NCBI GenBank assembly: GCA_913030835.1
Contig: CAJWDP010000011.1
Span: forward strand, 1 to 64,000
Origin: an uncultured Flavobacteriales bacterium
GTDB taxonomy: Bacteria; Bacteroidota; Bacteroidia; Flavobacteriales_D; Parvicellaceae
Direction of reading: 5' to 3'
DNA: 64,000 bases
Within the stretch, counting starts at the first letter, position 1, and each line of letters begins with the position of its first letter. The notes beneath the pieces were generated by a model. The model was not told the origin of the DNA and ran no database searches. It saw only the letters and a program-made list of their open reading frames with translations. Made by a program: the position numbers and the translations under genes. Positions 9,006 through 41,584 of this stretch are shown here, one piece after another.

Positions 9006-9950
9006 ATGTTTGAGGATATTGACAAGGTAACATCTGTATTTGAGTTTGACGACCCCACGGTTTACGCAATTCCGTTGTTTCTTGTAATGATCGGAATTGA
9101 ACTTGCCATTGATTTCAAAAAGAGCTTGAAGTTGTACCATGGTAAAGATGCTTTTGCCAGCATTGGCATGGGATTAGGCTCTTTGGTTATTGGACTTGGG
9201 ATGAAAACCTTAGCGTTCATTGTATTCAACTGGATCTACCACAATTATGGCATTTGGAAGGACATGAATCAGCATTGGTGGGTATGGATTCTTCTACTGT
9301 TCGCAGATGACTTCACTTTTTACTGGCACCACCGATTGAGTCATTCCATGAGAATATTGTGGGCTGCTCACGTCAATCACCATAGCTCTATCCACATGAA
9401 TTTCTCTACGGCATTGCGCCAAAGCTGGGTAGAAGTGCTCTATAAATATGTCTGGTGGCTATGGCTTCCGTTGGTAGGATTTCATCCTGTATTTATTATG
9501 ACCATGATGGCCTTCAGTTTGATCTATCAGTTTCTGCAACATACAGAGCTTGTCGGTAAATTGGGGCCACTCGAATGGGTTCTTAACACGCCATCTCATC
9601 ATAGAGTGCACCATGCTACCCAGGTAAAATACCTGGATCGAAATCATGCAGGCATACTCATCATTTGGGACCGAATTTTTGGAACTTTTCAGGAAGAAAA
9701 AAATGAAGATTTGCCCGTCTATGGAATCACCAACAACATCAGCACATACAACTTGTTTAAAATCGCATCTCACGAGTATATTTCACTTTGGAGAGATGTA
9801 AAAAGAGCACCTACTTTTAAAGACAAGTTCAATTACCTATTCCAACCGCCCGGTTGGTCTCACGACGGGGAACTGAAAACATCCAACCACCTCAGGCGCT
9901 TAGAAAAGTCTGCTTTGGAAAAAGACCATCTGAATATCAAAACGAACTGA
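9006..9950 (+). CDS. Sterol desaturase / fatty acid hydroxylase family membrane di-iron enzyme
   Basis: A 314-residue integral membrane protein with hydrophobic segments near 20-37, 52-75, 88-104 and 145-178. The histidine clusters of the superfamily are visible: H108/H109 to H113 (WHHRLSH), H122-H126 (HVNHH), H179 (QHTEL) and H198-H203 (SHHRVHH), followed by DRNHAG. These bind two irons for O2-dependent hydroxylation or desaturation of a lipid. In Bacteroidota, members act on carotenoids, hydroxy fatty acids or sterol-like lipids; the substrate here is unknown. The CotH-like gene starts two bases after its stop, so the two are probably one operon. Confidence 0.85.
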   Translation: MFEDIDKVTSVFEFDDPTVYAIPLFLVMIGIELAIDFKKSLKLYHGKDAFASIGMGLGSLVIGLGMKTLAFIVFNWIYHNYGIWKDMNQHWWVWILLLFADDFTFYWHHRLSHSMRILWAAHVNHHSSIHMNFSTALRQSWVEVLYKYVWWLWLPLVGFHPVFIMTMMAFSLIYQFLQHTELVGKLGPLEWVLNTPSHHRVHHATQVKYLDRNHAGILIIWDRIFGTFQEEKNEDLPVYGITNNISTYNLFKIASHEYISLWRDVKRAPTFKDKFNYLFQPPGWSHDGELKTSNHLRRLEKSALEKDHLNIKTN

Positions 9951-9952
9951 AT

Positions 9953-11158
9953 TTGCCCAAAAAGTCACTTTTCCTGTTTCAAAAGCGCTTCAAACTTATA
10001 GTTATTGCACTCTTGCTTCTTGCAATTTGCTACTACTATCGATATCCCATATATCACTGGGGTTATCAACAGTTTGGATTTTTAAACTATGATATTCCCA
10101 CTCTCCATTTTCACACTGAACCGGAATATGTGCTGACCATCAAAAGGCAAAGGGAAAAATCATTAAACGAAGGTTGGATCACGACGGATAAACGAGATCT
10201 TGTTCCCACCAAAATTGATTTGGATGGAAGGATTATCCAAGCACAATACAGGCTCAAAGGAGATTACATTGAGCATGCCTTGCAGGAAAAATGCTCTTAT
10301 CGGGTAGAGGCAGCAGATACTGTTTTTGGAAAGTTGAAGTTTTCTCTTCACAAACCTATCCGAAGGAACAATCTAAATGAGTTTTTTTGGCAATTCGCCT
10401 GTGCAAAGGAGGGATTAATCCGTTTGGATTACGACCTGGTTCAGTTGTCGGTAAATGAAGATAACTTCGGACTGTATGCTTTGGAAGAGCATTTTGGCCA
10501 TAACTTTTGTTCCCGACGTAATCTATCCGGATTCGTTTTGCGTTTTGAAGAAAAGGAATATTGGAATCAAAAAATCTCCTTCCAACCCATGTCTTCGAGA
10601 AAGTCATTTGAATCCGCTGCTATCGACAGCTATAGTACTCCCACAATAAAAAAAAATGCAGCATTGTGGAAAGAACACGAAGTAATCATTGCTAAGCTGC
10701 ACTTGTGGAGAGCCGGAATTATTCCACTCACTTCTGTTTTCGATCCATACAAACTCGCCACGTATTTTGCTCTTGCTGATTTATGTTCCGGACACCATGC
10801 TTTGGTATGGCACAATTTGAGGTTTTATTACAGGCCGGAAACAGGTCTTCTGGAACCCATAGCGTATGATGGTGATTTGTTCGGGACAATCGAAAGTCCT
10901 GTATTTGCTTCAGAAAACAGGAGTTCAGGATGGCATTTCTCATCCCGATGCCTCGGCAACAAATCGTTTGAAACAATCTATAAAAAGGAACTGGCAAGAA
11001 TTGCAGATAATCAGTACCTACATGATTTACTCCGTGATTTTAAAGGAGAACAATTGAAATATGAAAACATATTGCAATGGGAATACCCTAGCTATTCTTT
11101 CAACGCTAATTTTCTAATTAACAACGTACAGACAATACAATCCAATTTAATCCACTAG
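9953..11158 (+). CDS. Membrane-anchored CotH-like protein kinase-fold protein
   Basis: A TTG at 9953, two bases after the desaturase stop, gives 401 residues starting MPKKSLFLFQKRFK. An in-frame ATG at 9854 exists but would overlap the upstream gene by 97 bases. One N-terminal membrane helix (LIVIALLLLAICYYY) is followed by an extracytoplasmic domain. Motifs match CotH-like spore-coat-kinase folds: IDLDGRIIQAQYRLKGDYIE, KLKFSLHKPIRRNNLNEFFW, EEHFGHN, then WHNLRFYYRPETGLLEPIAY, where the Asp of AYDGD may be the metal-binding residue. CotH proteins are atypical secretory kinases that phosphorylate serine on coat proteins; kinase activity here is unproven. A second CotH-like gene lies at the right edge. 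Confidence 0.65.
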   Translation: MPKKSLFLFQKRFKLIVIALLLLAICYYYRYPIYHWGYQQFGFLNYDIPTLHFHTEPEYVLTIKRQREKSLNEGWITTDKRDLVPTKIDLDGRIIQAQYRLKGDYIEHALQEKCSYRVEAADTVFGKLKFSLHKPIRRNNLNEFFWQFACAKEGLIRLDYDLVQLSVNEDNFGLYALEEHFGHNFCSRRNLSGFVLRFEEKEYWNQKISFQPMSSRKSFESAAIDSYSTPTIKKNAALWKEHEVIIAKLHLWRAGIIPLTSVFDPYKLATYFALADLCSGHHALVWHNLRFYYRPETGLLEPIAYDGDLFGTIESPVFASENRSSGWHFSSRCLGNKSFETIYKKELARIADNQYLHDLLRDFKGEQLKYENILQWEYPSYSFNANFLINNVQTIQSNLIH

Positions 11159-38640: not shown

Positions 38641-39702
38641 TCAAAAAGGAGAAGAAAAAGCAGGGTTATTAATAAACTCAGGATCTGACAGCGATTTCAA
38701 AAATTCCTTAACCTGCATTTTTTCGGTCGCCGTAAGGGCCACTCCTCCGGTTGAAGCAAATTCGATTAATGGGCTAATATTTGGACTTGAAGCTTCTATA
38801 TGGTCGCTGTAATGATCAATTACCTCATCCAATGTATTGAATCTACCATCATGCATATAAGGCGCTGAATATTCAATATTCCTTAGTGTGGGTACTTTGA
38901 ACTTTCCAATATCAGTGGAAACTCCATTTACACCACCCAATCCTTCATCTACATGCACCAAATCCATTCCATTGTTCGAATAGCTATGATCTGTAAACAG
39001 CTTTGAGGAGTGCGGGTGACAGTGAAAGCAATCTGCTCCTGTCAGGTCTTGAAAAAGATTGTACCCCGCCAATTCATCGGGAGTCAGCATTAATTCAAAT
39101 CGAGTCCATTTATCCCATCTGGAATTACCGGAAACCATCGTTCGCAGAAATTGCGCAATTGCTTTCGATACATGCACAGAATCGACTTGGTCTACCCCAA
39201 AGGCCTCATAAAACATCCTCTGATACATGGTGTCAGACTGTAATTTATTTTCGACATTTTCCCACGTATCATTCATTTCTATGGGGTTCGTTATCGGATC
39301 AAATATCTGCTCCTCCAACGTAGCTGCCCTTCCATCCCAGAAAAAGTCGTTTGCATATCCCAGGTTTTGAAGTACCATTGCTTGTCTTGTACCTAATGCG
39401 CCAGTAACTCCCTGACTGTAACGATTTGTATCTGAAAACGCCGCAAATTGAAAGTGGCAATCTGCACATGACTGCGTATTCGTTCCAGACAATCTTTTTT
39501 CATAAAATAAGTGACGACCTAGTTCAACTCCTTCCACCGTAAGTGGATTACTTGATGGTATATTCATAGGAGGAAACCCACCGGGTAAATCTAAGCTATA
39601 CGGAGTTGGATTATGCACCCAAATTGTTGGCACTTCGGATTTGTCCTTTTTGCATCCAACAAGGAAAATAATTACGATCGCTGATAGTACCAACCTATGC
39701 AT
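38641..39702 (-). CDS. Diheme cytochrome c peroxidase / MauG-MbnH family lipoprotein
   Basis: A 353-residue protein from ATG 39702. Lipoprotein signal: hydrophobic AIVIIFLVGCKK with Cys17 in the lipobox, so it is anchored in a membrane facing the periplasm. Two c-type heme sites: C79-A-D-C-H83 and C225-F-H-C-H229. Between them NPIEMNDTW and GNSRWDKW are typical of the CCP_MauG family. The family includes hydrogen-peroxide reductases and MauG/MbnH enzymes that oxidise Tyr or Trp in a partner protein. A second copy lies directly upstream and an MbnP-family lipoprotein is first in the same operon, which makes the MbnH-like role attractive. Key distal Tyr or His cannot be assigned by eye. Confidence 0.86.
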   Translation of the reverse strand: MHRLVLSAIVIIFLVGCKKDKSEVPTIWVHNPTPYSLDLPGGFPPMNIPSSNPLTVEGVELGRHLFYEKRLSGTNTQSCADCHFQFAAFSDTNRYSQGVTGALGTRQAMVLQNLGYANDFFWDGRAATLEEQIFDPITNPIEMNDTWENVENKLQSDTMYQRMFYEAFGVDQVDSVHVSKAIAQFLRTMVSGNSRWDKWTRFELMLTPDELAGYNLFQDLTGADCFHCHPHSSKLFTDHSYSNNGMDLVHVDEGLGGVNGVSTDIGKFKVPTLRNIEYSAPYMHDGRFNTLDEVIDHYSDHIEASSPNISPLIEFASTGGVALTATEKMQVKEFLKSLSDPEFINNPAFSSPF

Positions 39703-39717
39703 ACCCTTCAAAGTTAC

Positions 39718-40761
39718 CTATTTTCGAAATGATTCGTTGGTTAAAAAACTGTCGTCGGTCAATGTTTTTAGAAAAGCCAACAAATCCTCTTTTTCTTCAT
39801 TAGAAAATACAATTTTTTCAATCAAAGGGTCCTGGTTCCAATGGCCAGACCCACCCCTCTGATAGCTATCCAACACATCATTCAATGTCCTATAGCTTCC
39901 ATCATGCATGTATGGACCCGTTACTTCACAATTCCGCAAAGTTGGCACTCTGAACTTCCCATGATCCATATGTTTAAGGGTGATTCTAGCCCTTCCTGTG
40001 TCAGCATACACCTGATGACTCCCGTTGTTTGCGTAACTATTATCAGTAAAGTTAAAACCACTGTGGCATGTTGAACACTTCGCATCATCTCCGAAAAATA
40101 GATCCATCCCACGCTTTTCCGCTTCGGTAAACCCGTATTTTCCCTCCTGAGCCAGATCATATCTGGAATTTCCGGAGATAAAGGTCCTCATAAAATTGGC
40201 AAGCGCTCTGGTAATCACGAATGCATCCATGTCCCGGCCATATGCCTCTCTTGCCATTCTTTGGTATGCTGAATCCCGTGAAATTCGGATCGTTAACTCG
40301 TGCATATTGTAATTCATTTCGAGCTGGTCTTCAATCGGCGCTTTGATTTGCAGCTCGAGATTTGGTATTCCACCATCTTTGAAAAAACGGGGCACATAAG
40401 CAACATTGTGCAAAGCCGTGGCATTTCTCTGTCCTATCCCACCATGGGCTCCAGAACTCAATGCTAATGTATCAGAAAACGAGTACTGTGGAATGTGACA
40501 CGATGCGCATGATACCGTTTTATCGAGGGATAAAATCGGATCATAAAAAAGCTGTTTACCCAAAGAAATGCGCGCCTTTGATGGCAAATTATCTTCTGGA
40601 AAGTCTATTTCAGGGAAATGATCCGGGATTTTAATCCAATTTGCCGATACATCCTGAGCTTCATACTGTAGAAATTCTCTATTCTCTCCGCATGCGAATA
40701 GTGCTATTAGCATGCAAGAAATCAGTTTACTCAGATCAATGCAATTTGAGAACCTTTTCAA
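39718..40761 (-). CDS. Second diheme peroxidase / MauG-MbnH family lipoprotein
   Basis: A 347-residue paralogue of the downstream gene with heme sites C85-A-S-C-H89 and C229-S-T-C-H233 and the same EDQLEMN and GNSRYDLAQ stretches. Lipobox LFAC at Cys24. The start appears to be TTG at 40761, which overlaps the end of the MbnP-family gene by 26 bases and gives a charged n-region (MKRFSN) before the hydrophobic core; ATG 40713 would leave too short a signal peptide. The gap to the next peroxidase gene is 15 bases. Two peroxidases with one MbnP may act on different sites or at different steps; this is inference. Confidence 0.85.
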   Translation of the reverse strand: MKRFSNCIDLSKLISCMLIALFACGENREFLQYEAQDVSANWIKIPDHFPEIDFPEDNLPSKARISLGKQLFYDPILSLDKTVSCASCHIPQYSFSDTLALSSGAHGGIGQRNATALHNVAYVPRFFKDGGIPNLELQIKAPIEDQLEMNYNMHELTIRISRDSAYQRMAREAYGRDMDAFVITRALANFMRTFISGNSRYDLAQEGKYGFTEAEKRGMDLFFGDDAKCSTCHSGFNFTDNSYANNGSHQVYADTGRARITLKHMDHGKFRVPTLRNCEVTGPYMHDGSYRTLNDVLDSYQRGGSGHWNQDPLIEKIVFSNEEKEDLLAFLKTLTDDSFLTNESFRK

Positions 40762-41494
40762 AATTATTCGCCAAGTTTTGCGCTAAATGCATATTATCCA
40801 TTGTGTGGGTACTGTTGTCAATTGCTAAATTGATACCATCAAAGAATTCCGAATAGTCCACATCCAAAGAAATAACCGAAGTTTCTCCTGCTGCTATTGC
40901 TTTATTTACATATAAATTTGGACCTTCCCTGTAGGTTGTGTCCATTCCAATATGCATAGAGAAAAGCTCACCCGGGTCATAATTGCCATTTCCATTTATG
41001 TCCACTCGTCCATCCAATGCACAAAAAATGTAACCACTTGACCAACCCCAATGCATACTAGGTGATTGATTTCCCAGTGCACTTCCGAGCTCATGAATAT
41101 TTGGATCCATGTGATTCGTTACAGAATCAACTCCCACTGCCCATTGAAGATTATACAACGTCATTGGAGAATATTCACCATAATTTACGGTCGTTACAGA
41201 CGGGTCTATTTTGAGGTAATACGAATCACTTACAATTTGGGGATTACTATCCTGATCTACGAAACCTGACACTCTTAAATACCAGTCCGCTCTGAAAAAC
41301 TGATATTTATTTCCAAAATCATCCGTATAATCTGTGTTAAAAGCGAAGGACTCTGTTCCTACCAAATGAGTAAAGCTCAAATCAACCTTTCCCGGTTCTT
41401 GAGTACAGGTTGGATTTTCTTCATCTTTCTTGCAGCCGAAGAAAGCAATCGTTAGGATAAAGGTGCCAATGATACTTGTTGAGAAAATTTTCAT
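40736..41494 (-). CDS. MbnP-family periplasmic lipoprotein (copper-binding family)
   Basis: A 252-residue lipoprotein (hydrophobic TSIIGTFILTIAFFGC, lipobox Cys21). The family is recognised by DLSFTHLVGTESFAFNT, RADWYLRVSGF, and especially MHWGWSSGYIFCALDG with Trp149 and Trp151. In methanobactin-producing methanotrophs, MbnP binds copper after its diheme partner MbnH converts a tryptophan to kynurenine. The presence of two diheme MauG-family lipoproteins immediately downstream is the same pairing. There is no methanobactin gene here. This protein probably binds copper in the periplasm, but modification of a Trp is inference. Confidence 0.83.
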   Translation of the reverse strand: MKIFSTSIIGTFILTIAFFGCKKDEENPTCTQEPGKVDLSFTHLVGTESFAFNTDYTDDFGNKYQFFRADWYLRVSGFVDQDSNPQIVSDSYYLKIDPSVTTVNYGEYSPMTLYNLQWAVGVDSVTNHMDPNIHELGSALGNQSPSMHWGWSSGYIFCALDGRVDINGNGNYDPGELFSMHIGMDTTYREGPNLYVNKAIAAGETSVISLDVDYSEFFDGINLAIDNSTHTMDNMHLAQNLANNFEKVLKLH

Positions 41495-41584
41495 TTTATT
41501 TCTTTTCTAATGTATGTTACGATTTATTACAGCTTTTAGTATGACAAGCCATCAGATTTCACATGACTAAATTCACTTGAAAAG

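Follow-up and report, generated by a model that had tools for sequence, protein, structure and literature searches.

An MbnP-family copper-protein locus of a Flavobacteriales bacterium with two unlike MbnH-type diheme enzymes

MbnP proteins of Bacteroidota are, as a rule, accompanied by a single diheme enzyme, and the locus described here raises the question of why an uncultured Flavobacteriales bacterium keeps two of them beside one MbnP, and what each would do. The window (the whole 64,000-nucleotide stretch of DNA that was analysed) holds a known kind of copper-protein locus, with two different heme enzymes in place of the usual one. All three genes are read from the minus strand, MbnP first, followed by diheme B and then diheme A:

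40736..41494, minus strand: MbnP-family lipoprotein, 252 aa (PF20243, E 3e-24)
39718..40761, minus strand: diheme B, 347 aa, MbnH family, Trp-less subtype (PF03150, E 3e-46)
38641..39711, minus strand: diheme A, 356 aa, or 353 from the ATG, MbnH family, Trp-bearing subtype (PF03150, E 8e-56)
41042..41050, minus strand: WGW motif of MbnP (Trp149 at 41050-41048, Trp151 at 41044-41042)
40378..40380, minus strand: codon for Lys128 of B, which aligns with Trp93 of MauG and with the inter-heme Trp of MbnH

Given a TTG start for B, this gene overlaps that of MbnP by 26 bases, and the gap from B to A measures 6 bases with a TTG start of A or 15 with an ATG start. Each protein has a lipobox (FFGC-KKDEE in MbnP, FLVGC-KKDK in A and ALFAC-GENR in B), and both A and B contain two CxxCH motifs. 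The first-pass annotation of this DNA had described three lipoprotein genes, the motif MHWGWSSGYIF and paired CxxCH hemes, and all of these are present. The Pfam matches of the three proteins are far above chance. The source genome encodes a single MbnP, A and B are the only PF03150 proteins detected in it, and a c-type cytochrome assembly gene was also found. A search whose positive controls matched revealed no homologue of the methanobactin protein MbnB (PF05114) in this genome, implying that the locus does not require methanobactin, as had been proposed earlier; MbnP-MbnH-type pairs without methanobactin have been known since 2013 (PMC3621798). The operon is also conserved in relatives, both in the tandem loci considered below and in a congener (locus L086) that displays identical genes, order and flanks.

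The MbnP scored 86.5 bits against PF20243, for which the gathering score is 27, and 26 bits against the WxW equivalog TIGR04052, for which the cut-off is 140, so that membership is claimed at the family level and not at the equivalog level. An AlphaFold2 model computed from an alignment of 43 homologues (pLDDT 90) matches the solved MbnP of Methylosinus trichosporium (7l6g) with a Z of 16.3 and an rmsd of 3.0 over 203 residues, the next row having a Z of 5.0; a single-sequence search of the PDB gave no real match, whereas both the profile and the model recovered 7l6g. In the profile alignment to this structure, Trp149 falls on the first Trp of the WNW motif of M. trichosporium MbnP, and it is invariant in the 43-sequence alignment. 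This first Trp is reportedly the residue that is turned into kynurenine, according to work on the M. trichosporium protein from 2021. By homology, kynurenine formation from the first Trp of the motif and the binding of Cu(I) would be expected for the MbnP of the window as well. His181 and His230 are conserved among MbnPs of this type, with Met often replacing His230 in single-enzyme loci, and both are candidate copper ligands.

The mature N-terminus of the MbnP, C-K-K-D-E-E, fits C-X-K-(D/E)2-X, the surface lipoprotein export signal of Capnocytophaga (C. canimorsus) (PMC5080379). Related MbnPs from tandem loci carry a C-terminal sorting domain of the type IX secretion system (T9SS; PF18962) instead; this tail replaces the lipobox in the MbnPs of L164, L155, L098, L214, L225, L237 and L206, which implies their secretion to the cell surface. 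Judged by these signals, both routes would end at the cell surface, where MopE and CorA are also located. The full export signal is found in neither A nor B, and therefore the two enzymes may face the periplasm. The lipid anchoring that the first-pass annotation had regarded as unusual is common, since most Bacteroidota MbnPs carry a lipobox. The methanotroph systems MopE/SACCP and CorA/CorB likewise combine a surface copper protein containing kynurenine with an adjacent diheme gene resembling a cytochrome c peroxidase (CCP) (PMC3912023, PMC3423442), but their sequences are not markedly similar to MbnP (PMC3621798), and MopE and CorA have one diheme each. Tandem MbnP genes were also observed beside a diheme gene (L162, L166, L174, L213, L234, L245 and L259), one of the copies usually lacking WxW.

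The best sequence match in the PDB for both A (E 6e-50) and B is MbnH (6e1c). Against the MbnH model TIGR04039, which is the top NCBIfam family for both, B scored 260 bits and A 247 bits, below the cut-off of 363, and the MauG equivalog score is far under its cut-off for A and B alike. The structural model of B matches 6e1c with a Z of 38.4 and 37% identity, compared with about 33 for classical peroxidases, about 31 for MauG and 29.0 for BthA; together with the PF20243 and PF03150 matches and the model match to 7l6g, this bears out the earlier assignment of the locus to the MbnP family and the MbnH type. The features that define an MbnH-type enzyme, namely two CxxCH motifs, a Tyr in place of the Met ligand and a distal Glu and Gln, are present in both A and B. 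In the alignment, Tyr takes the place of the Met that serves classical peroxidases as sixth ligand of the second heme, in A as well as in B; with the distal pair Glu/Gln also retained, neither is a classical peroxidase, a point that the first-pass annotation had left to be checked.

The two enzymes differ between the hemes. Alignment with 6e1c and 1iqc shows that the inter-heme Trp, present in MauG (Trp93), MbnH and classical peroxidases, corresponds to Trp125 in A (FFWDGR) and to Lys128 in B (FFKDGG); B departs from this pattern and we therefore refer to it as a Trp-less MbnH relative and not as an MbnH proper. At the inter-heme Ca site, B keeps Asn/Thr/Pro and A has Gln/Ser/Pro. The Asn is shared by MauG, MbnH, CCP and B, so that A combines the Trp with an altered Ca site and B an intact Ca site with the absence of the Trp. 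MauG (3l4m) resembles them as a Tyr-ligated diheme that oxidises a Trp of its partner protein, but it has the Trp that B lacks and produces TTQ in methylamine dehydrogenase. Compared with the MbnP/MbnH system of M. trichosporium OB3b (7l6g and 6e1c; TIGR04052 and TIGR04039), the locus shares the MbnP fold, the aligned first Trp of WxW and an adjacent diheme with a Tyr ligand and distal Glu/Gln; it differs in that it has two diheme genes, of which one encodes an enzyme that lacks the inter-heme Trp, that the proteins are lipoproteins, that the genome lacks an MbnB homologue and that all three NCBIfam scores are below their cut-offs.

To learn how widespread this arrangement is, we collected 121 MbnP loci from Bacteroidota, in which a diheme gene was found near MbnP in 118 cases, 97 as a plain pair and 13 as a close tandem. 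Using the Trp-less type as query, and hence with a bias towards it, we gathered a further 80 loci. The pooled samples contain 49 tandem diheme pairs, 48 of them consisting of one Trp-less and one Trp-bearing enzyme and only one of two enzymes of the same type, and the Trp-less gene comes first in 45 of the 48 mixed tandems. Within the MbnP-anchored sample 12 of the 13 tandems are mixed, a count equalled in 1 of 100,000 label shuffles, which ignore shared ancestry. The residue at the Trp position of the Trp-less enzymes is mostly Arg or Lys, with Ser, Ala, Met and Thr also occurring. A tree built from 45 pairs has one branch (SH-aLRT 98.7) that separates all Trp-less members from the rest; this and the mixed pairing indicate that the two genes have long been inherited together as a cassette and did not arise by recent duplication. 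A recent or local tandem duplication of A and B is also ruled out by their 37% identity and their separate, supported clades. A and B are ancient paralogues of different clades, and the duplication that the first-pass annotation had singled out is thus not the unusual part of the locus; what sets it apart is that two unlike MbnH-type enzymes, one of them lacking the inter-heme Trp, are conserved as a pair. About fifty alignment columns separate the Trp-less from the Trp type (48 versus 48 sequences); at one of these, MbnH, CCP and each of the 48 Trp-type partners have Phe, and the Trp-less enzymes usually have Ser or Ala. The mixed tandem is shared by dozens of species of Bacteroidota and occurs in cultured strains too (Cryomorpha ignava, Taibaiella lutea and Edaphocola aurantiacus).

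Either subtype can also be found alone beside an MbnP in some genomes, so neither strictly depends on the other. The cases with a lone Trp-less enzyme include high-completeness genomes, and in two genomes (G097 and G270) it is the sole MbnH-type gene beside a WGW MbnP, the remaining PF03150 proteins being a Met-ligand CCP and another type. These two genomes rule out that the Trp-less enzyme always requires a Trp-bearing MbnH in the same genome.

The families, folds and ligand residues of the three proteins and the conserved pairing of the enzymes are direct observations; that A and B both act on MbnP, and how they would divide the work, we infer. The reading that we favour, with somewhat better than even confidence, is that MbnP is a surface copper protein in which a Trp is oxidised to kynurenine and that two non-equivalent MbnH subtypes serve it. 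The locus would then make a cell-surface copper protein together with its maturation enzymes: MbnP would be exported as a lipoprotein, MbnH-type dihemes driven by H2O2 would convert a Trp of WGW into kynurenine, Trp149 being the likeliest target, and Cu(I) would then bind at the site so modified. A, which has the inter-heme Trp as MbnH and MauG do, and B, which is without it, would be two ancient subtypes acting on the same MbnP. The conversion of Trp to kynurenine takes four oxidising equivalents and each H2O2 supplies two, so that two turnovers are required. Two unlike dihemes could perform one turnover each, as different two-electron steps of a single conversion, or take one Trp of WGW each, and these are the likeliest ways of sharing the work.

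The distribution of the motif bears on this reading. WxW is intact in all 47 MbnPs of mixed tandem loci and in 41 of 42 accompanied by a lone Trp-less enzyme (88/89 together), compared with only 74 of 95 accompanied by a lone Trp enzyme. Among loci of this MbnP's own family with the Trp enzyme only, one group has HWQM for HWxW, so the second Trp was lost where the Trp-less enzyme is absent. The pattern is suggestive of both enzymes acting on MbnP, with the qualification that it reflects a handful of events and is not significant on the tree. The HWQM proteins, which keep the first Trp and have Met for the second, are those of L089, L090, L094, L095, L100-L103 and L181-L183, and every one of them is paired with one single Trp-bearing diheme; further losses of WxW were seen in L151, L159, L162, L168, L171, L174 and L180. 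Of the 24 loci that combine a WGW MbnP with a diheme gene, 22 have a Trp-less enzyme, which raised the idea that WGW co-evolves with this enzyme; a test on the tree showed only about three changes, so the link is not independent evidence and serves as a lead only.

In a more far-reaching version of the favoured reading, the reactions of A and B on their shared MbnP would differ, with B oxidising a protein substrate although it has no inter-heme Trp as relay. The product would be a doubly modified, unprecedented WGW copper site that might contain two kynurenines or a novel ligand derived from Trp; we offer this tentatively and regard it as unlikely.

The strongest competing explanation is that A alone is the MbnH that modifies MbnP and that B is a peroxidase similar to Burkholderia BthA (6nx0), removing or tuning H2O2 and leaving MbnP untouched. 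BthA is likewise a Tyr-ligated diheme without the inter-heme Trp, reaches bis-Fe(IV) nonetheless and uses H2O2 as a peroxidase, reducing it to water, and MauG studies found the Trp necessary for the oxidation of a protein substrate (PMC6405878). BthA differs, however, in having Ser and not a basic residue, Lys or Arg, at the Trp position, in having lost the Ca site of which B retains Asn/Thr/Pro, and in its partner, described as a phosphatase of unknown function and not as an MbnP. B is also structurally closer to MbnH than to BthA by the Z scores given above, and the lone Trp-less enzymes of G097 and G270 argue against B being a mere peroxidase. We therefore consider this explanation doubtful, though a serious one.

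An obligate heterodimer of A and B, with catalysis in one subunit and electron relay or docking of MbnP in the other, is improbable: the unlike partners are tightly conserved in tandem and classical bacterial CCPs are dimers, but single-enzyme pairs prevail elsewhere and each subtype, including the Trp-less one in high-completeness genomes, can stand alone with an MbnP. Equally hard to credit is that A and B are redundant, or suited to different conditions such as peroxide level or redox state with the same product, because, although both keep all peroxide-handling residues and each can occur alone, subtype-specific residues are kept across large distances and same-type tandems are nearly absent.

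Two gene families recur near MbnP in Bacteroidota, encoding a short membrane protein with a motif of the C-N-G-K-C-Y-L type (45 loci) and a protein of about 310 residues that begins A-C-D-N-C-N after its signal (39 loci); neither gave a Pfam or NCBIfam match above the cut-off. In congeners both genes stand upstream of MbnP, between it and a subtilase gene (L086 6454-7786, L088 4571-5902 and L075 4420-5836; the window counterpart is 41495-41584). The window has neither gene, and neither was found in the source genome, where the search with the ACDNCN protein failed although it did match in congeners; the window thus shows a five-gene locus in stripped form. Clustering of the neighbour genes yielded antisense artefacts for the most part, and also a family of CusB/HlyD-like adaptors for metal efflux (PF16576 with DUF3347) near five tandem loci (L230, at 9576-10973, L207, L218, L239 and L242), which is consistent with a link to copper.

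In the open-access literature searched we found no description of the three-gene version, MbnP with two dihemes, though an earlier report may exist, and we know of no biochemistry on any Bacteroidota member of the MbnP/MbnH system. The inter-heme Trp is thought to wire the two hemes and is held to be necessary for the long-range oxidation of a protein substrate by MauG. A Trp-bearing and a Trp-less diheme on one presumed substrate make the role of this residue testable with matched enzymes, and the locus points to an unstudied surface copper-handling system across a large phylum, the Bacteroidota.
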